Shown here one piece after another: positions 5,005 through 41,940 of a stretch of 49,230 nucleotides of DNA. Position numbers and translations under genes: made by a program. The notes beneath the pieces were generated by a model. That model worked only from the letters and a program-made list of their open reading frames with translations. It was not told the origin of the DNA and did no database searches. Origin of the DNA: an uncultured Candidatus Saccharibacteria bacterium. Its GTDB lineage: Bacteria > Patescibacteriota > Saccharimonadia > Saccharimonadales > Saccharimonadaceae. The DNA lies in assembly GCA_947425085.1 (NCBI GenBank), contig CANDYV010000002.1, forward strand, positions 1-49,230, written 5' to 3'. Position 1 is the first letter of the stretch. Every line of letters begins with the position of its first letter.

Positions 5005-5081
5005 TGGTGCGGGCGAAGAGACTCTAACTCTCGACCTCTTCCTTGGCAAGGAAGCGCTCTAAACAACTGAGCTACGCCCGC
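5005..5081 (-). tRNA. tRNA-Gly (anticodon GCC) with U19/A56
   Basis: A 77-nt cloverleaf with encoded CCA. The acceptor GCGGGCG/CGCCCGC is perfect, the anticodon loop is TTGCCAA, and the T stem is GAGAG/CTCTT. The D loop reads AGTTGTTTA and the T loop TTAGAGT. The near-universal G19-C56 tertiary pair is therefore U19-A56, a matched double change; G18 and U55 are kept. The neighbouring tRNA-Leu has normal loops (GG and TTCAAGT). A sigma70 promoter precedes it. It could be an ordinary decoding tRNA with a compensated pair, or a tRNA specialised for cell-wall glycyl transfer. Confidence 0.93.
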
Positions 5082-5272: not shown

Positions 5273-5357
5273 TGGTGCCCGAGACTGGACTTGAACCAGC
5301 ACGCCTTGCGGCATATGCTCCTAAGGCATACGTGTATACCAATTTCACCACTCGGGC
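5273..5357 (-). tRNA. tRNA-Leu (anticodon UAG)
   Basis: An 85-nt class II tRNA with encoded CCA. The acceptor is GCCCGAG/CTCGGGC, the D loop has the normal GG, the anticodon loop is CTTAGGA, the long variable arm is GCC-GCAA-GGC, and the T loop is TTCAAGT. It reads CUN leucine codons. TATAAT lies just upstream (5371-5366). Confidence 0.95.
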
Positions 5358-13143: not shown

Positions 13144-14688
13144 CTACAGAGCAACATTACAGAGGCTTTGGCAGTATTCATGGATGTTCTGGTTATGCTC
13201 ATCCTCTGTACTACTATAATACATCGTACCGTCGTCGCCTGTCAAGAAGTAATACTTGTCGGCAACGCTTTCATCAGGGGTGGCGGTAGAGGTTAAGGCT
13301 TCGAGACCAGGATTGGAAATTGGGCCGTAAGGCAGGCCAGGATTTTTGCGGGTGTTATATGGCGAATCGATTTCGAGAGCGGCAGCATTGTCACCATAGA
13401 CTTCACGATTCGGGTCGACGAGATCGACGGCGTATTGAACGGTGACATCACTACCAAGCGTCCAGCCATCGGCAAGGCGATTGTAGAAGACTTTGGCGAC
13501 CTTGGCTTGGTCTTCGGCATTATTGGCTTCGCGCTGGACGACGGAGGCGAGGGTGATTCCTTGATAAAGATTGAGGCCTTGTGCTTCGAATTTAGCTTTC
13601 AGGTCGTTCTCCTCGAGGACGTCGGCCATTTCTTCAAGAAGACGACCGACAATGTTCTCAACTTTATCACCTTTGTAAAATTCGTAGGTATCACCAAAGA
13701 GATAGCCTTCGAGGCTAGTATTGTCCTCGGGGCGACCTTCAAAAATCCAAGCATAAGGCTTGCTGGAATAGTCAGCGGAAAGGCCAGCGGTAATTTCTTC
13801 ATCGGTATAACCATAGAGTAGGAGTTTTTTACGGAAATCGAAGATGTTTTCGCCTGGGAAGAAAGTAAAACTAAAAACGTTGTCGCGACTGCCAGTAAGG
13901 AGCAAATCGGTGATGTCGGCGACAGACATGGACTTATTGAGGTTATATTCACCGGCCTTGAGGCTGTCACCGCCCGAGGTGAGGCGGAAATGAATCTGAA
14001 AAACAAGGCTGTCACGGATGAGGCCAGCCTCTTTCAGCTCGTTTGCAACATCGCTAACGCTGGAGCCGGTCAGAACTGCGAAGACAGTGTCGTCGCATTC
14101 GTCGGCGTCAACTTCAGCGCAATTAATCTCAGAAACTGGGCGCGAGTTGTATTTATAGTATCCAAAAGCTGCACCGCCCAATAGGCCTAGTAAAACTAGA
14201 ATAGCAATAATTGCGGTCGCAAAACGGTGCGGCTTAGCTGCCTTGACGCTTTTGCGATGAGTCGAGGCGGCGCGAGTTGTGGACTTTCCGGTTTTCTCTT
14301 CGAGAAAGTCCTGAAGAATAATCGTGGCGGCCTCGGAGTCAATATCACCCTTTTTATAACCTTTTTTGCGATTTTTAAGGCGCTTTTCGGCTTCGACTGA
14401 GGTGAGAGATTCATCCTGAAAGCAGATTTTGGCGCTCGGAATAGACTTTTTGAGATCGCGCGCAAACTGTCGGACGTAGCGGCTTTGCTCGGTTTCTTGG
14501 CCCTGACTGTTGCGAGGGAGGCCGATCACGAAACTATCAATGTCCCAGGCGCGAGCCAGCGAGGCGATTTTTTGGAACTCGGTGCCGTCGACTTCTACGG
14601 CACTATAAGGGATGGCGATGCGGACTTTCGAATCAGCCTTAGCGACGCCAATGCGCTTCGTGCCGACATCAAGGGCGATTAGTTTCAT
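13144..14688 (-). CDS. RuvX/YqgF - MltG fusion protein
   Basis: A 514-aa two-domain protein in one uninterrupted frame. Residues 1-135 are a YqgF/RuvX RNase H-like domain (ALDVGTKRIGVA with Asp7, QDESLTSVEAE, and IDSEAATIILQDFL with Asp117), a family tied to 16S rRNA 3'-end maturation. A basic linker leads to one membrane helix (about 158-178). Residues 195-514 are an MltG/YceG endolytic transglycosylase with a LysM-like part and ASVVQREANN (Glu387 as the expected catalytic residue), which cuts nascent glycan strands outside the cell. The fused topology tethers an RNase H-like domain to the inner face of the membrane. The two families are neighbours in many genomes, so gene fusion is a natural origin. 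It overlaps the upstream gene by 4 bp. Confidence 0.93.
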   Translation of the reverse strand: MKLIALDVGTKRIGVAKADSKVRIAIPYSAVEVDGTEFQKIASLARAWDIDSFVIGLPRNSQGQETEQSRYVRQFARDLKKSIPSAKICFQDESLTSVEAEKRLKNRKKGYKKGDIDSEAATIILQDFLEEKTGKSTTRAASTHRKSVKAAKPHRFATAIIAILVLLGLLGGAAFGYYKYNSRPVSEINCAEVDADECDDTVFAVLTGSSVSDVANELKEAGLIRDSLVFQIHFRLTSGGDSLKAGEYNLNKSMSVADITDLLLTGSRDNVFSFTFFPGENIFDFRKKLLLYGYTDEEITAGLSADYSSKPYAWIFEGRPEDNTSLEGYLFGDTYEFYKGDKVENIVGRLLEEMADVLEENDLKAKFEAQGLNLYQGITLASVVQREANNAEDQAKVAKVFYNRLADGWTLGSDVTVQYAVDLVDPNREVYGDNAAALEIDSPYNTRKNPGLPYGPISNPGLEALTSTATPDESVADKYYFLTGDDGTMYYSSTEDEHNQNIHEYCQSLCNVAL

Positions 14689-35679: not shown

Positions 35680-36948
35680 TTAGACGTGGCGGACTTTTTT
35701 GCGGACGGACTCGATGAGCTTGGTGATGGCGTATTTGGCGGGTTTTAGGATGATGTCGTGAGCGGGAGTATAGCGAAGCTCGTCGACGCCGAAGCCACGT
35801 TTGAAACAGGAGACGCCGTAGAAACGGTGGTGGATTTCGTCTTCCTCGACTATGCCCCAGAAATTGTAGCGCTTAATTCCCCGTTCGCGAGCGTCGCGCA
35901 TGGCTTCCATATGAAGGAGCGGAGCGCCGGAATACTTCGTGCCAAGCTCGGAAGAGACGCCGTAATGATAGGAGGCCTCGTTGCCATAGAAAATCATGAA
36001 GTTTTGGGCGAGGATTTGGTCCTGATATTTGGCAGTATATAGGACAGCTTCGCCGTTTTTGGCGAGGGCGGCAAATTGCTTGGTCAGGAAGTCTTCAGAG
36101 AAGGCGACGAATTCGTGACGACCGGCGGTCTGGAGCTGAATTTGGTAGAACTCATGGATATCTTTCGGGTCGGTGGACTTTTCGACTTGAATATCATTTT
36201 TAGCGGCTTTGCGAAGAGCGCGGCGGAGGCGCTGACGCATACCTTTCAGGATTTCGTCTTCGGATTTATTGAGGTCAAGAACGCCGGCAAACTCGACCGA
36301 AAGATACATTGGAGCTGGCTTCAACCCGCGGCTTTCGAGAAGCTGGAGATTTTCGGGAGTGCGTTCGAGCTGCGGGCGAACGCGGACAAAGACGCAGTTT
36401 TCTTTCTTACCCTGGATGCGCATGTCTTCAAAGATAGCGGTGACAAGGGGCTGGTTCGACCAGTCAAGAATCGGACCGCCAGCGATAGCGAGGTGGCGGC
36501 CGCGCCGAGCGGCTTCAATAACGCCAGCATAAGCGGCAACGATTTTGCCACTCTCGTCTTTGGCGAGGCGGCGAATGATATGGTTGCCGCGGCTCAAATG
36601 GAACTCATAAAAGTCCCAAGACTGGAGGAAGTTTGCCTCGGGGTGGCTAGTGACGAAATCGTCCCACTCTTCGCGATTTTTAGCATCTTCGAAATTGAAG
36701 ACGGAGACAGTAGGAGTTTTGGCTTTCGCTTCGGTCTCTACTTCGGCAATGACGGCGGCTTCAGATTTCCCTGTGGCTTTCGCGGTTTCGGCGATCTCCG
36801 AAGCGGGGATTTCTTTGGTAGTGGTTTCGATGATAACAGTACTGGCTGGAGTCCTGACAGTGGTGCGATGGACTTTTTCGGAAGTTTTTGGGGCGGTGGA
36901 CTGGTTTTCTGCCTGGGATTCGGGGATGGATTTAGTTTTTTCTGACAT
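35680..36948 (-). CDS. FemAB-family peptidyltransferase, long form
   Basis: A 422-aa protein of the Fem/MprF-related GNAT superfamily, whose members add amino acids from aminoacyl-tRNA to the peptidoglycan precursor stem. The first 80 residues are a charged, probably disordered extension (Thr/Ala/Glu/Lys rich). The twin GNAT domains follow, with NFLQSWDFYEFH, GGPILDW, LRRALRKAAKND and the conserved SYHYGVSSELGTKYSGAPLLHMEAM near the second acyl-CoA-like site. It lacks the long coiled-coil arm of staphylococcal FemA. It is the last gene of the MurF-like operon, 125 bp after the second FemAB gene, with AGGAG before the ATG. Amino acid donor unknown. Confidence 0.92.
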   Translation of the reverse strand: MSEKTKSIPESQAENQSTAPKTSEKVHRTTVRTPASTVIIETTTKEIPASEIAETAKATGKSEAAVIAEVETEAKAKTPTVSVFNFEDAKNREEWDDFVTSHPEANFLQSWDFYEFHLSRGNHIIRRLAKDESGKIVAAYAGVIEAARRGRHLAIAGGPILDWSNQPLVTAIFEDMRIQGKKENCVFVRVRPQLERTPENLQLLESRGLKPAPMYLSVEFAGVLDLNKSEDEILKGMRQRLRRALRKAAKNDIQVEKSTDPKDIHEFYQIQLQTAGRHEFVAFSEDFLTKQFAALAKNGEAVLYTAKYQDQILAQNFMIFYGNEASYHYGVSSELGTKYSGAPLLHMEAMRDARERGIKRYNFWGIVEEDEIHHRFYGVSCFKRGFGVDELRYTPAHDIILKPAKYAITKLIESVRKKVRHV

Positions 36949-37016
36949 TTTTACTCCTGTTATTTAGATTATTTGGTTGCTTTCTTGTGATTTTGGCAAC
37001 TTTTGCGAGCTGATTA

Positions 37017-37045
37017 TTGACTTTTTCGGAAAAGTGTGCTATAAT
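37017..37045 (+). promoter_or_regulatory. Orphan plus-strand promoter between the two FemAB genes
   Basis: TTGACT (37017-37022), 17-bp spacer, TATAAT (37040-37045), with AAGTGTGC before the -10 and GGTATTATG after it. It fires into the 3' end of the minus-strand FemAB gene at 37074, a mirror of the promoter beside recG (7162-7190); 15 of the 17 bases before the -10 are near-identical between the two. Confidence 0.65.
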
Positions 37046-37073
37046 GGTATTATGGGGCATTTCTGGCAGTTCA

Positions 37074-38081
37074 CTAGAGGCGCCTTTTCTTTTTGCGGAC
37101 GGTTTCGACGAGGAGGTTCAAGAGGTAGCGGAAGCGGCGGATGACAAGGTCACTGGCAGGGACGAACTCGACGATTTCGCCGCCGAAGCCGGTCTTGAAA
37201 GTGGTAACGCCGGCGTAGCGATGATTTTTCTGGCCATGAGGGGCAATCCCCCAGAGATTATAGCGTTTTATACCGAGTTTTTTGAGGTCTTTGATGACTT
37301 GCCACTCGAGAGCATAGGCGCCAGGAAGCTTGTGGTTCAGCTCGGTCGAAGCGGCTTCGAAGTATTCGGCCTCGACGCCGCTAATCAAAATGAGACCATA
37401 AGCAATCGGCTCACCTTCGGCGGTTTTGGCAACATAGATGCGGGCGTGGTCGTCGAAGGCAGCACGCTCGGCGAGGAGGGTTTTGAGATCGGGCGGGACA
37501 AAATGCTGGCGGAGAGCGGTCTCGGCCTGAACTTGATGAAATTCGCGGAAAATCTCCTCGCTGCTAGACCAATCGACCGTAATGCCGAGCTTGCCGGCGC
37601 GGCGAACTTCGTAGCGGGTCTGGCGACGCATTTCTTTCAAGAGTTCATCTTCGGATTTCTCGAGGTCAAGGATGACGGTATGCTCGGCGTGGAGGTGCAT
37701 AGGGGCTTTCTTCAGGCCGAGGCTAGAGAGGAGCTGAAGATTCTCGGGGGTATTCCGAAGCTGGGGGCGAAGACGAACAAAAACACATTTCTCGCGCTTA
37801 GCAATAGCGCGAATTTTGGCAAAAATCCCCTGAACAGCGGTTTCGTCTTGCCAATCGAGGAGTGGACCGCCGGGAACTTCCAGATAGCGTCCGCGCTTGG
37901 CATTTTTGACGATCATCAAGCACCATGCTTTATCGGTTGCTTCGATAATAACTTTATGACCGATAAGTTCATTCATGCGACCCCATTCGGGGGATTGGAG
38001 GAAGTTCGCCTCGGGGTAGAGCTGCTGGATTTTAGGCCAGAGTTCGGCGAGACTGGAAGAAAGGTTCTGCGGACGCGTCAT
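37074..38081 (-). CDS. FemAB-family peptidyltransferase, short form
   Basis: A 335-aa paralogue of the preceding protein. Shared marks are NFLQSPEWGRMN, GGPLLDWQDE, FVRLRPQLRNTPENLQLL, MRRQTRYEVRRAGKLG and YEAAS-type TELNHKLPGAYALEWQVIK, then GIKRYNLWGIAPHGQK. Two paralogues in series usually add successive residues of an interpeptide bridge (as FemX, FemA and FemB do), so a two-step bridge is a fair inference. The start overlaps the DegT stop by 4 bp. Substrate residues cannot be read from sequence. Confidence 0.93.
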   Translation of the reverse strand: MTRPQNLSSSLAELWPKIQQLYPEANFLQSPEWGRMNELIGHKVIIEATDKAWCLMIVKNAKRGRYLEVPGGPLLDWQDETAVQGIFAKIRAIAKREKCVFVRLRPQLRNTPENLQLLSSLGLKKAPMHLHAEHTVILDLEKSEDELLKEMRRQTRYEVRRAGKLGITVDWSSSEEIFREFHQVQAETALRQHFVPPDLKTLLAERAAFDDHARIYVAKTAEGEPIAYGLILISGVEAEYFEAASTELNHKLPGAYALEWQVIKDLKKLGIKRYNLWGIAPHGQKNHRYAGVTTFKTGFGGEIVEFVPASDLVIRRFRYLLNLLVETVRKKKRRL

Positions 38082-39367
38082 AGTTCAACCTCATAAGGTT
38101 TGATGATTTCGCGAGCTTTTGCGAGCTTAGTCTCCGGATACCAAGTCGGGAGATTGATGATGTGCTGGGCGACTTTGACAGTATTCGGGCAGCGATCGGT
38201 CGGAAAGTCGGCTTCGAGAGCATAGCGCACCGGAGAAACTGGGGTGTCATACCAGATTTCACAGAAGTCGTAGCCGTTATGCTTAAGCTCCTGGAGAAGC
38301 TGATCGCGTTTTTTTACAAAGGCATGTTCGCGGAGCGGGGTTTTCGGAAGCTTGTCTAGTTGCTCACGGGCGAGTTTAGCCTGCCAATGAGTTGAGCGGG
38401 TTTCTAGAGACAACTCAGCGTCGGCGGACTTTTCGATCCAGCGAAACTTGACGCAGACAGCAAGGATGGCTTTGCCGAGGCCGATGCTCCAGAAAGTGCG
38501 GCTGAGACCGGCGAAGACTGGATACCAACGGTCGCGCAAACTGGCGCTCAGGCGAGGTCGCTTAGGCGGCTGGTCAAGGGTCTGGTCGGCGGTAGATTTG
38601 GGCTGGCGGACGATAAGAGCGCCGCCGCAAATCGTGTCGATGGCCTTGCCCTTGCCAAAACTGAGAGCGGTCGCGGCGCCGATAGTGCCGATTTCGCGAC
38701 CATCGGGATAGAAACGACCAGCAGAGTGGGCAAGATCTTCGATGATAATCGCATTGTGTTTTTTTACGACTTCTTCAAGCTTCTCGGCGTCGAGAGGGAG
38801 ACCGAGAGTATTTTGAGCGATGACAACCGGCCGAGGCTGGTTTTTTGCTCGGACGAGGTTATTTTCGGTGTTTTCCGGCGAGCTGGAAGCATCGCCGGGG
38901 CGTGGAAAAGCGGGGCTCATCGAGCCATTACTACCATTGTCTTCACTATCGTTCAGATAATGGGGCGTATCCTCGGAAGAGTCCGAGCAAGCTCGGCTCT
39001 CCCCTCCTATACTACCATTGTAGCACAGCGTAAGCGTTTTGTCAAGAGCGTCGAAGTCGTATTGGAGAGTTTCTGGGTCGATGTCGGAGTAGACGGGGAT
39101 ACAGCCGGCGGCCTTGATAGCGCGGACGACAGCGATACAGGTGAGTCCGGGGAGAATGACCTTCGCGCCAGGCTCGGTGACAGCAAGGAGGGCGGCGGCA
39201 AGAGCGGAGCGGCCTGTGTGATAGAGTGCGACTTGGTCGACGGCGGAGCCGTAGCGGGAGGCGAGGGCGTGACGAAGGGCTTGGCTATCTTTCGGGGTGC
39301 CCCAGGCAAAAAGATGTCGCAAAGTGCGGCCGACGGGATAATTCGAGGCAAGACCAAGAAAAATCAT
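38078..39367 (-). CDS. DegT/DnrJ/EryC1/StrS-family aminotransferase with an internal insertion
   Basis: A 429-aa PLP-fold protein; relatives transfer an amino group to nucleotide-linked sugars. Features are YHTGRSALAAALLA (PLP phosphate region), KVILPGLTCIAVVRAI, IIEDLAHSAG (Asp stacking under PLP) and SFGKGKAID with Lys242 as the expected Schiff-base lysine. Residues about 112-178 are a low-complexity Ser/Asp/Asn/Pro-rich insertion, not normal for the family, between DKTL and VVIAQNTLG; it contains a perfect promoter sequence on the coding strand. It is coupled on both sides by 4-bp overlaps. Likely job: making an amino sugar for the wall or surface glycan. Confidence 0.9.
   Translation of the reverse strand: MIFLGLASNYPVGRTLRHLFAWGTPKDSQALRHALASRYGSAVDQVALYHTGRSALAAALLAVTEPGAKVILPGLTCIAVVRAIKAAGCIPVYSDIDPETLQYDFDALDKTLTLCYNGSIGGESRACSDSSEDTPHYLNDSEDNGSNGSMSPAFPRPGDASSSPENTENNLVRAKNQPRPVVIAQNTLGLPLDAEKLEEVVKKHNAIIIEDLAHSAGRFYPDGREIGTIGAATALSFGKGKAIDTICGGALIVRQPKSTADQTLDQPPKRPRLSASLRDRWYPVFAGLSRTFWSIGLGKAILAVCVKFRWIEKSADAELSLETRSTHWQAKLAREQLDKLPKTPLREHAFVKKRDQLLQELKHNGYDFCEIWYDTPVSPVRYALEADFPTDRCPNTVKVAQHIINLPTWYPETKLAKAREIIKPYEVEL
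39018..39046 (-). promoter_or_regulatory. Intragenic promoter inside the DegT insertion
   Basis: TTGACA (39046-39041), 17-bp spacer, TACAAT (39023-39018), with CTGTGC before the -10 and GGTAGTATA after it, then a hairpin CCGAGC-TT-GCTCGG. It could drive the FemAB genes independently of the operon promoter. Confidence 0.55.
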
Positions 39368-40605
39368 CGTTTCCCTTTCGTGGATTTTTTCGTAGAGGAG
39401 GCGGGTTTGGCAGCGGATTTGACTGATTTTGAAGAGGTCTTTGTGGCGACTTTTGGTTCCAGGCCGATTTTGCGGCGAGCGCGCTCGAGGCGACCGACTT
39501 TCGGGACGGAGGCGCTGGAGATAATCTGGTGCGGCTCGGGCGCCGGCAAATCAGCGGCTTCATACTCGACGCCTTCAGGTCGTTCAGGGGCAGCCGCGAC
39601 GACGGGCTGAGGCGCGTTGGCTTCAAATTGACGCTTGATAGCGGCGCGCTGACGGCGGGTGAGCGGAGCTCGAGAATGGATCGCAGCAGGCTTCGCCTTC
39701 GAACTCGGAACGGCGAGAGCGGCAGACATCTTCGAGGCATCATCGGCGCTCGGGCCGGCTGCTTTCTTGAAAGCGAGCGTGGCGGAAATCGGCGCCGTAC
39801 TCGGGACGACTGGCTCGGCTGCCTTCTTCATGGCCATCGACGCAGAAACCGTGGCGGCCTGAGTGACCTCGACAACCGGCTTCACTTCGGGCGGATGGCG
39901 ATAGGCTTGTAAAATCGCTTTCGCGAGTTCGTCGGGGTGAGAAAGATAAGGTGCGTGGGTCCAGCCTGGGAAAATCTTCAACGTGCTACCTTTGATAGAT
40001 TGATGCATGATTTCGGCTTGGTGCGGCGGAGTGACGGTGTCATTCGCACCCCAAAGAATAGAGGTCGGAGTCGTCACCTTGGCGAGATTGAGATTTTTGT
40101 CGCTATCGAGCATATTGGTCAAAGTTTTCTTCATATTTTCGGGAGCGCGAGCATAGTCAGAGGCGCCGGTGAGTTTACGCCAGACCTTAGTCAAGCCAGG
40201 GACTTTCTTGAGAAAGCCGAGTCGCTTCGAGAGATTGCGGGCGACGTCGCGCTTGTTGGAGGTTTCATAAACTCCGGCGGCGTCAAGCAGAATGAGATGG
40301 GAAAGTTTGTCAGGTTTTTCGCTACAGAGATTAAGTAAAATGCGACCGCCGTTGCTGTGGCCGAGGGCAATAGCGCCATCAGGGATGTTGCGGTCAGCCC
40401 AGTCTTTGTACTCGTCAATCGTCCAGACTTTCTTTGAGGAAGTAGTGAGGCCGGGGACATTGAGCATTTCGACGACAAGCCCTTGCTTCTCGAGGAGGGC
40501 AATGGTGCGTTCCCAGGGTGCAACGGTATAGGTCCAGCCATGAATGATATATAATTTCGGGCGGCGACTCCTGGGGAGTTTCTTCGGGTCAGGGATACTA
40601 GGCAT
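39364..40605 (-). CDS. Alpha/beta hydrolase with long disordered C-terminal tail
   Basis: A 413-aa protein. Residues 15-235 form an alpha/beta hydrolase with IHGWTY (oxyanion region), the nucleophile elbow GHSNGG (Ser84), Asp189 in WGANDTVTP and His217 in GWTHAPYL. Residues 240-413 are Ala/Pro/Lys/Ser rich with two similar ATxSASMAMKKAAEP / APISATLAFKKAAGP blocks and a very basic end (SSTKKSTKGKR). The tail may bind nucleic acid, membrane or wall polymers. AGGAGG lies 6 nt before the ATG. It is the second gene of the operon, 63 bp after the MurF-like ligase. Substrate unknown. Confidence 0.88.
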   Translation of the reverse strand: MPSIPDPKKLPRSRRPKLYIIHGWTYTVAPWERTIALLEKQGLVVEMLNVPGLTTSSKKVWTIDEYKDWADRNIPDGAIALGHSNGGRILLNLCSEKPDKLSHLILLDAAGVYETSNKRDVARNLSKRLGFLKKVPGLTKVWRKLTGASDYARAPENMKKTLTNMLDSDKNLNLAKVTTPTSILWGANDTVTPPHQAEIMHQSIKGSTLKIFPGWTHAPYLSHPDELAKAILQAYRHPPEVKPVVEVTQAATVSASMAMKKAAEPVVPSTAPISATLAFKKAAGPSADDASKMSAALAVPSSKAKPAAIHSRAPLTRRQRAAIKRQFEANAPQPVVAAAPERPEGVEYEAADLPAPEPHQIISSASVPKVGRLERARRKIGLEPKVATKTSSKSVKSAAKPASSTKKSTKGKR

Positions 40606-40668
40606 AAGCGACCTCCTGCGCGAAGACGACGGACGAGCTTAAGTCGGAAATGGGCGAGACGGAGATCA

Positions 40669-41940
40669 TCAGTCTAACCCCCATTTCTGGCGGCGTTTGA
40701 CGGCGGCTGGCTCGCGGCGGGGTAGCTTCGCGGCGTCGGCCGGGTCGGCAAGGAGCTTCTCGATAATCCACTCAAGATACTGGCTGCCCTTGAAAACGAT
40801 AGTTTCTTCGCCAGTGGCGTTATTCTCGATGAACTTGAGGGCTTTTTTCGGGTCGAGGGTGGTGCGGGCAGGAATACCAAGTTCCTTGAGGCGGGGCGCG
40901 GTATATTCTTTCGTGCGGCGACCGACCAGGATGACCATTTCCGGACCAGCGTCAGCAATGAGGTTGGCGAGCTTATGATGCTCTTCGCCTTCGATTGATC
41001 CCTGGTCGACAATATCGCCGATAACGAGCCACTTATGGCCAGCGCGGAGATTGCGGGTCATCTCGAGAATAGATTGAGCGCTGATGATATGGGCGTTATA
41101 ACTGCTGTCGATAAGATTAAGACCTTTTTTACCCTTAAAATAGCTGCTGCGGCCGGGCGGGACGGGCATAGAACTGAAATCGGTGCGAAGCGGAACGCCG
41201 AGATAGACCATGAGATCCTCGAGCATGAGGAGCTGGATGGCGATATCTTTCGGCTGAGGTTGGGCAAAATGAAACGAGGCGGACTCAAAGACGAAATCGG
41301 TGCGGGTCGGGTAGACGTTGTAGCGCTTGAGTTGCTTCTTCGAGAGGGCGATAACTTCGGCTTTGATGTTTTTGGTCGCTTCGCGCATCGGCTCGGAATC
41401 AGCATCGATATAAACGCGCTTCGTTGTGTTCTCGGGGAGAGTGGCAAATTCATGAGCAATGGCAGCGTCGAGGGTCGGGAATTTCCCTTCGGCGACGGCG
41501 TTCTCGAACTGGATGGCGTGAGAAAGACCGAAGGAGACCCAGAGAGTAACCTCGGGCTTCAACCAGGTCGCGAGAAACTCGGTCTCGTGCGGGCGTTCGC
41601 CATCGATTTCGACGACATAGAACTCACCTTTACGCTGATAATAGAGAGCCTTGAACGGCGCAAAAAGGAAAAGCTTAATCCAGCGGAGCTTCGAGCCGCG
41701 GACGCCATCCATCCCGAGGAGATCAAAGGTGATACCGAAGGCGGAATTGGCATCGTGGGAATAATGGGCGCGGTCGCCAAGCTCAAACTCAATCATGTGG
41801 AGCAAAGTGGTCTTCCCCGCGGAGCCGGTGACGGCGATGATGCGGGGATGCCAGCGCCGGAGAGCGAAGTTCGCAAAAAACCGGAAGTAGCGAGCAGCTA
41901 CGAAGTAAAACCGTTTTTTAAACCTCATCACGGGCGTCAT
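40669..41940 (-). CDS. Mur-ligase-family protein (MurF-like)
   Basis: A 423-aa ATP-dependent amide ligase fold. The P loop is VTGSAGKTT (38-46), followed by the central domain with VVEIDGERPHET and a C-terminal domain holding IDSSYNAHIISAQS and IGDIVDQGSIEGEEHHKL. The order matches MurF-type ligases, which join a dipeptide to a UDP-MurNAc tripeptide. A basic, weakly hydrophobic N terminus (1-30) replaces the usual UDP-binding domain, so the substrate may differ. It may act on another wall polymer or precursor, as first gene of an operon with DegT and two FemAB proteins. TATAAT lies 6 bp before the ATG (leaderless). Confidence 0.9.
   Translation of the reverse strand: MTPVMRFKKRFYFVAARYFRFFANFALRRWHPRIIAVTGSAGKTTLLHMIEFELGDRAHYSHDANSAFGITFDLLGMDGVRGSKLRWIKLFLFAPFKALYYQRKGEFYVVEIDGERPHETEFLATWLKPEVTLWVSFGLSHAIQFENAVAEGKFPTLDAAIAHEFATLPENTTKRVYIDADSEPMREATKNIKAEVIALSKKQLKRYNVYPTRTDFVFESASFHFAQPQPKDIAIQLLMLEDLMVYLGVPLRTDFSSMPVPPGRSSYFKGKKGLNLIDSSYNAHIISAQSILEMTRNLRAGHKWLVIGDIVDQGSIEGEEHHKLANLIADAGPEMVILVGRRTKEYTAPRLKELGIPARTTLDPKKALKFIENNATGEETIVFKGSQYLEWIIEKLLADPADAAKLPRREPAAVKRRQKWGLD

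Follow-up and report, generated by a model that had tools for sequence, protein, structure and literature searches.

The window analysed here (the whole stretch of 49,230 nt, contig C2 of the genome) carries a gene for tRNA-Gly(GCC) on its minus strand at 5005–5081, and ARAGORN and Rfam concur on its identity, strand and exact coordinates (Rfam score 69.3 bits, gathering score 29). The gene is 77 nt long with an encoded CCA and reads GCGGGCGUAGCUCAGUUGUUUAGAGCGCUUCCUUGCCAAGGAAGAGGUCGAGAGUUAGAGUCUCUUCGCCCGCACCA. A G19-C56 pair is counted as a near-invariant feature of tRNAs. In this gene, the D loop (AGUUGUUUA, 9 nt) has G18 followed by U19 instead of the usual G19 (window position 5063, minus strand; the 19th base counted from the 5′ end at 5081), and the third base of the T loop, UUAGAGU (U54 U55 A56 G57 A58), is A56 instead of the usual C56 (position 5025, minus strand). 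The molecule is standard elsewhere, with U8, A14, G15, U33, the U32-A38 anticodon-loop pair, G53-C61 and U54-A58 all present and G18-U55 kept, and its T stem (GAGAG/CUCUU) contains G49-U65 and G51-C63. The glycine identity set, G1-C72, C2-G71, C35 and C36 (PMC9976931), is complete in the sequence. Plain RNA folding of this tRNA gave no cloverleaf, and the fold was left out of our reading. The discriminator base, here and in all related Gly tRNAs read, is A73 (position 5008, minus strand), not the U73 usual in bacteria; bacterial U73 has been reported to be an antideterminant for the deacylase DTD (PMC9976931).

As an internal control, we used the tRNA-Leu(UAG) at 5273–5357 on the same strand, also called by ARAGORN and Rfam, which has the canonical G19-C56 (GG in the D loop, UUC in the T loop). 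A first-pass annotation of this DNA had described a tRNA-Gly(GCC) with a compensated U19-A56 pair, a normal tRNA-Leu nearby and two FemAB-type transferases, and each of these features is borne out. The two FemAB-family ORFs (PF02388) lie on the minus strand at 35680–36948 and 37074–38081, 30 kb from the tRNA-Gly gene, and nothing ties them to the tRNA. Together with ORFs for a DegT-type aminotransferase, an alpha/beta hydrolase and a Mur-ligase C-domain protein, they form a candidate locus for wall-precursor modification (35680–41940, minus strand). Elsewhere in the window, a single ORF (13144–14688, minus strand) fuses RuvX (PF03652) to a YceG/MltG-like domain (PF02618).

The genome to which the window belongs (717 kb in 45 contigs, 75% complete) has 28 recognised tRNAs, 26 of which have G19-C56. 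The exceptions are tRNA-Gly(GCC) and tRNA-Ala(UGC), the latter with A19-U56 (D loop AGCUGAUUA, T loop UUUGAAU); tRNA-Gly(CCC), tRNA-Ala(GGC) and tRNA-Ala(CGC) are canonical. A second tRNA-Gly(GCC) gene was not found in this 75%-complete genome, and the gene is also single in most relatives, including two (G045 and G009) with an estimated completeness of 100%. Where two copies occur (G058 and G397), both are U-A or have A56. In about 20 ORFs of the window, GGC and GGU account for 499 of 601 Gly codons (83%), and hence the sole GCC tRNA must decode, a consequence that the first-pass annotation had made conditional on the gene count. One relative has a degenerate second tRNA-Gly(GCC)-like copy (G079:C4:162819-162874), with a T loop that begins GTGAGA, ∼11 kb from the intact one.

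To follow the swap in other genomes, we searched 99 relatives with a pattern in which positions 19 and 56 were left open. This search recovered U19-A56 tRNA-Gly(GCC) from throughout the genus and from several further families within the order, and A19-U56 in one genome (G073). Within a single genus, some species have A19-U56 in tRNA-Ala(UGC) and others U19-A56, with D loops of both the AGCTG and the AGTTG background. An unbiased test for position 56 is provided by a survey of 117 genomes of the class Saccharimonadia, in which tRNA-Gly(GCC) was located by its anticodon arm and position 56 was left open. Among the matches listed, Gly(GCC) had A56 or U56 in 64 of 64 genomes, 19 of them from other orders of the class, with no case of C56 or G56. 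In a search of 192 genomes of the phylum, those Gly(GCC) tRNAs that lie outside the class have G19-C56, and in a scan of GTDB contigs, all titles among the matches listed were Saccharibacteria, Saccharimonadia, Patescibacteria or ‘bacterium’ MAG. Throughout the class, the swap is thus fixed in those tRNA-Gly(GCC) genes that were read, and base 19 always matches base 56. On a tree of AlaRS proteins, in which several branches are weakly supported, the state of the Gly(GCC) pair requires at least three changes among 12 genomes. The open-licence literature that we searched held no prior report of an elbow swap.

Neither a sequencing error nor a peculiarity of a single genome accounts for the swap, since the U19-A56 tRNA recurs in relatives from the genus, family, order and class. 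The first-pass annotation had reasoned in the same direction, naming relatives with G19-C56 as the finding that would speak against it, and the opposite was seen. Chance and error are further ruled out by covariation: wherever a Gly, Ala or Pro tRNA was read, positions 19 and 56 varied together. We judge the missing G19-C56 to mark a variant of tRNA-Gly(GCC), given that this feature is near-invariant rather than defining and that the pair is compensated and clade-wide.

Covariation was quantified in 309 distinct tRNA sequences from all fetched loci, a sample enriched for Gly(GCC), as some loci were fetched with a Gly(GCC) pattern. Gly, Ala and Pro tRNAs contribute 126 distinct sequences, with 35 G-C, 50 U-A and 41 A-U pairs and no mismatches. 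Gly(GCC) alone (61 distinct sequences) comprises 44 U-A and 17 A-U pairs, with neither G-C nor C-G. Judging from these sequences, the elbow is apparently maintained by compensatory change, the pair being never broken among the 126. Within the order, Gly tRNAs other than GCC, Ala tRNAs and a few Pro tRNAs alternate among G-C, A-U and U-A. The remaining isotypes of the set are G-C, save for one tRNA-Met mismatch and one Leu D loop misparsed by the script; Phe, Leu, Val and Glu are G-C in every clean reading, as is Arg(CGN) in 8 of 8 distinct sequences read. The tRNA-Met(CAT), at locus L271 (G067:C6), has G19 and A56 and is the sole uncompensated elbow mismatch seen.

We also scanned 60 genomes of the order for T loops with a base other than C at position 56 followed by CCA, and fetched and re-read 60 chosen sites. 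The non-C56 tRNAs verified in this way were Gly (GCC, CCC and UCC), Ala (GGC and CGC), Pro(UGG) and one Met; the deviant Pro(UGG) sequences, from two genomes (G074 and G066), are identical. Among the matches listed for Ala acceptor ends in the 60 genomes, 17 of 93 had U56, a few of the 93 being tmRNA ends. Two genomes (G064 and G069) combine U-A in Gly with A-U in Ala. Since the polarity can thus differ within one genome, depending on whether the tRNA is for Gly or for Ala, we rejected gene conversion from a single deviant tRNA. A separate change was seen in tRNA-Cys(GCA), which adjoins tRNA-Gly in related genomes: in 11 of 32 distinct sequences (for example, L034, L046, L143, L159, L178 and L201), G18-U55 is replaced by A18-G55 and G19-C56 is kept, with a D loop of AGCAGTT or AGGAGTT and a T loop of TGCAACT or TGCGAAT.

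Enzymes that act on these tRNAs were compared in Patescibacteria. In 13 genomes with an intact gene, the AlaRS reading frame is about 617–656 codons long and stops just past the editing domain; the copy in the window's own genome is divided between two contigs. In the two AlaRS proteins analysed, Pfam detects the catalytic and SAD domains but no DHHA1/C-Ala. In other organisms, C-Ala grips the elbow of tRNA-Ala (PMC10036535, PMC10485164). AlaRS is short in all of the 14 Patescibacteria compared, among them two whose tRNAs are normal, and hence loss of C-Ala alone does not explain the swap; we rejected it as the cause and regard it as a plausible, at most permissive, step for tRNA-Ala. All 14 genomes, with or without the deviant tRNA, encode a GlyRS of the dimeric type that leaves a stretch of the model within about 350–421 unmatched. 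TruB is present in 12 of 14, the window's own genome included, and its loss as a cause was therefore also rejected. The minimal TruB substrate, with consensus GUUYRANYC, has Y56 (PMC7912444), so tRNAs with A56 may be without Ψ55, or TruB may be adapted.

AlaRS also charges tmRNA. The tmRNA T loops at 11 Saccharimonadia loci (L241–L245 and L247–L252) are degenerate (TGCGATA, TGCAATT, GGCAGTA, AGCATTA, TGTGATA), with G55 replacing U55; those of two other Patescibacteria (L240 and L246) have the normal TTCAA, and TTC-type tmRNA ends also occur in some members of the order. We considered an AlaRS-driven change of which tmRNA would be a mark and provisionally rejected it, as these T loops deviate mostly at 55 and 54, do so without a matched 19-56 swap, and are accompanied by normal TTC-type ends.

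The gene at 5005–5081 is, very probably, an ordinary and essential elongator tRNA-Gly(GCC) with a compensated elbow, in which U19-A56 replaces G19-C56. Charging with glycine and delivery by EF-Tu are predicted. Judged by the covariation, U19-A56 would form a Watson-Crick pair and close the L shape in the same way. Other molecules, RNase P and the ribosome among them, stack on the exposed distal face of the 19-56 pair, which offers them a flat surface (PMC4810234), and for this reason a matched swap can work. EF-Tu, RNase P and the ribosome (through L5, the A-site finger and the L1 stalk) may use mainly the flat face and shape of 19-56 and its neighbours, and a matched swap would then be tolerated, as shape rather than bases would be what these partners mainly use.

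The swap may even be favoured in Gly, Ala and Pro tRNAs, although this step is weaker: a pair with two hydrogen bonds could loosen the elbow where codon-anticodon pairing is very strong. The GC-rich codon boxes are those of Gly, Ala, Pro and Arg(CGN), three of which are affected, a suggestive grouping made post hoc. Our preferred, unproven account is that the weaker elbow pair tunes tRNAs of the GC-rich boxes, the lineage being one in which AlaRS no longer has C-Ala. That 19-56 is a natural tuning element, at which selection holds a weak A-U or U-A pair to balance strong codon-anticodon pairing, we put forward only tentatively and with considerable doubt; to our knowledge, such a role is known only for the 32-38 pair of the anticodon loop. 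The pattern would be invariable in Gly(GCC) and variable in Ala, Pro and the remaining Gly tRNAs. That Gly(GCC) has neither G-C nor C-G, that A-U and U-A exchange freely, and that the swap is restricted to strong codon boxes tilts the balance towards selection. Two observations lean the other way. Tuning predicts that Arg(CGN) should deviate, and its eight G-C sequences count against it; and the Ala tRNA that deviates in the window's own genome is UGC, although GGC and CGC pair more strongly.

The same observations can be read as neutral drift, a reading that we take seriously without thinking it probable. Here, some reader of the 19-56 bases would have been lost in the ancestor of Saccharimonadia, after which compensatory changes accumulated without benefit. 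That tRNAs within a single genome differ independently in pair type (G064 and G069) fits this view, as do the repeated changes on the AlaRS tree and an AlaRS without C-Ala; moreover, with A18-G55 in tRNA-Cys and degenerate T loops in tmRNA, elbow change is broader than one pair. However, drift should also have produced C-G pairs and reversions to G-C in Gly(GCC), neither of which occurs among its 61 distinct sequences, and confinement to Gly, Ala and Pro is not expected when Phe, Leu, Val and Glu all remain G-C in clean readings. Nor is AT bias a driver, as the GC content of the window is 52.5%. Alternatively, an A-U or U-A elbow might mark Gly and Ala tRNAs for or against an enzyme such as GlyRS, AlaRS, an editing deacylase or a tRNA-cleaving toxin of the host bacterium. 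Both pairs are free of guanine, few amino acids are affected, and A56 falls outside the TruB consensus (PMC7912444), such that modification may differ. Yet the AlaRS of a single genome must charge both G19-C56 Ala(GGC, CGC) and A19-U56 Ala(UGC), the polarity of the pair flips freely, and no candidate reader was found, the dimeric GlyRS having the same unmatched model segment in all 14 genomes, with or without the deviant tRNA. These considerations make a mark of this kind improbable.

The first-pass annotation had raised another idea, attractive in its view but unproven: that FemAB-type transferases use the tRNA as a glycyl donor dedicated to the cell wall, with EF-Tu avoided as it is in staphylococci. 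Its attractions are the two FemAB ORFs and the Mur-ligase-like ORF within the window, the fact that Gly and Ala are typical Fem substrates, and the changes at 18-19 that S. aureus wall tRNAs also show (PMC4052509). But no other tRNA-Gly(GCC) gene was found, 83% of the window's Gly codons depend on this one, the EF-Tu pairs G49-U65 and G51-C63 and G18 are kept, Ala and Pro tRNAs are swapped too, and the FemAB genes are distant. The idea fails at each testable point and is not supported; we consider it very improbable.

An ordinary elongator with a swapped elbow has implications of its own. A bacterial class has exchanged a near-invariant pair in an essential tRNA, in the sole copy found, in either polarity (A-U or U-A) and without ever breaking the pair. 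The swap amounts to a mutagenesis experiment performed by nature on the requirements of the elbow: in these tRNAs, shape has been conserved and base identity has not. Whether RNase P, TruB, synthetases and the ribosome recognise bases or only shape at 19-56 thereby becomes testable, and the swap supplies a sequence marker for the class.

Comparison with known systems places this tRNA close to the canonical bacterial form. It shares with E. coli tRNA-Gly(GCC) the anticodon, the cloverleaf, C35, C36, G1-C72, C2-G71, U32-A38, the T-stem pairs G49-U65 and G51-C63, G18-U55 and U54-A58, and differs in having U19-A56 for G19-C56, A73 for U73 and one more nucleotide in the D loop. The non-proteinogenic wall tRNA-Gly of S. 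aureus (PMC4052509, PMC8007984) likewise has a changed base 19 and an altered T loop. In those tRNAs, however, G18 G19 become UU or CU, so that both positions are changed, and A49-U65 and A51-U63 replace G49-U65 and G51-C63 (PMC4052509); the anticodon is UCC in the case described, and the genes are extra ones beside normal ones. Here the anticodon is GCC, the EF-Tu pairs and G18 are kept, the pair is compensated and no second GCC gene was found. tRNA-Pyl and type II mitochondrial tRNAs are also without G19-C56 (PMC7609411), but there the whole GG/TΨC motif and the usual D-T contact are gone, whereas here one pair is swapped and the rest is standard; instead of the loss of G18, U54 and U55 and the short D loop of tRNA-Pyl, we find G18, U54, U55 and A58 all present. 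Finally, the 32-38 pair tunes tRNAs by codon box (Uhlenbeck and others, reviewed in PMC6720975), with tRNAs of GC-rich boxes, Gly among those named, tuned down (PMC6720975). The 19-56 swap similarly affects tRNAs of GC-rich boxes (Gly, Ala and Pro), but it lies at the elbow instead of the anticodon loop, and the tuning role suggested for it there is our own proposal.
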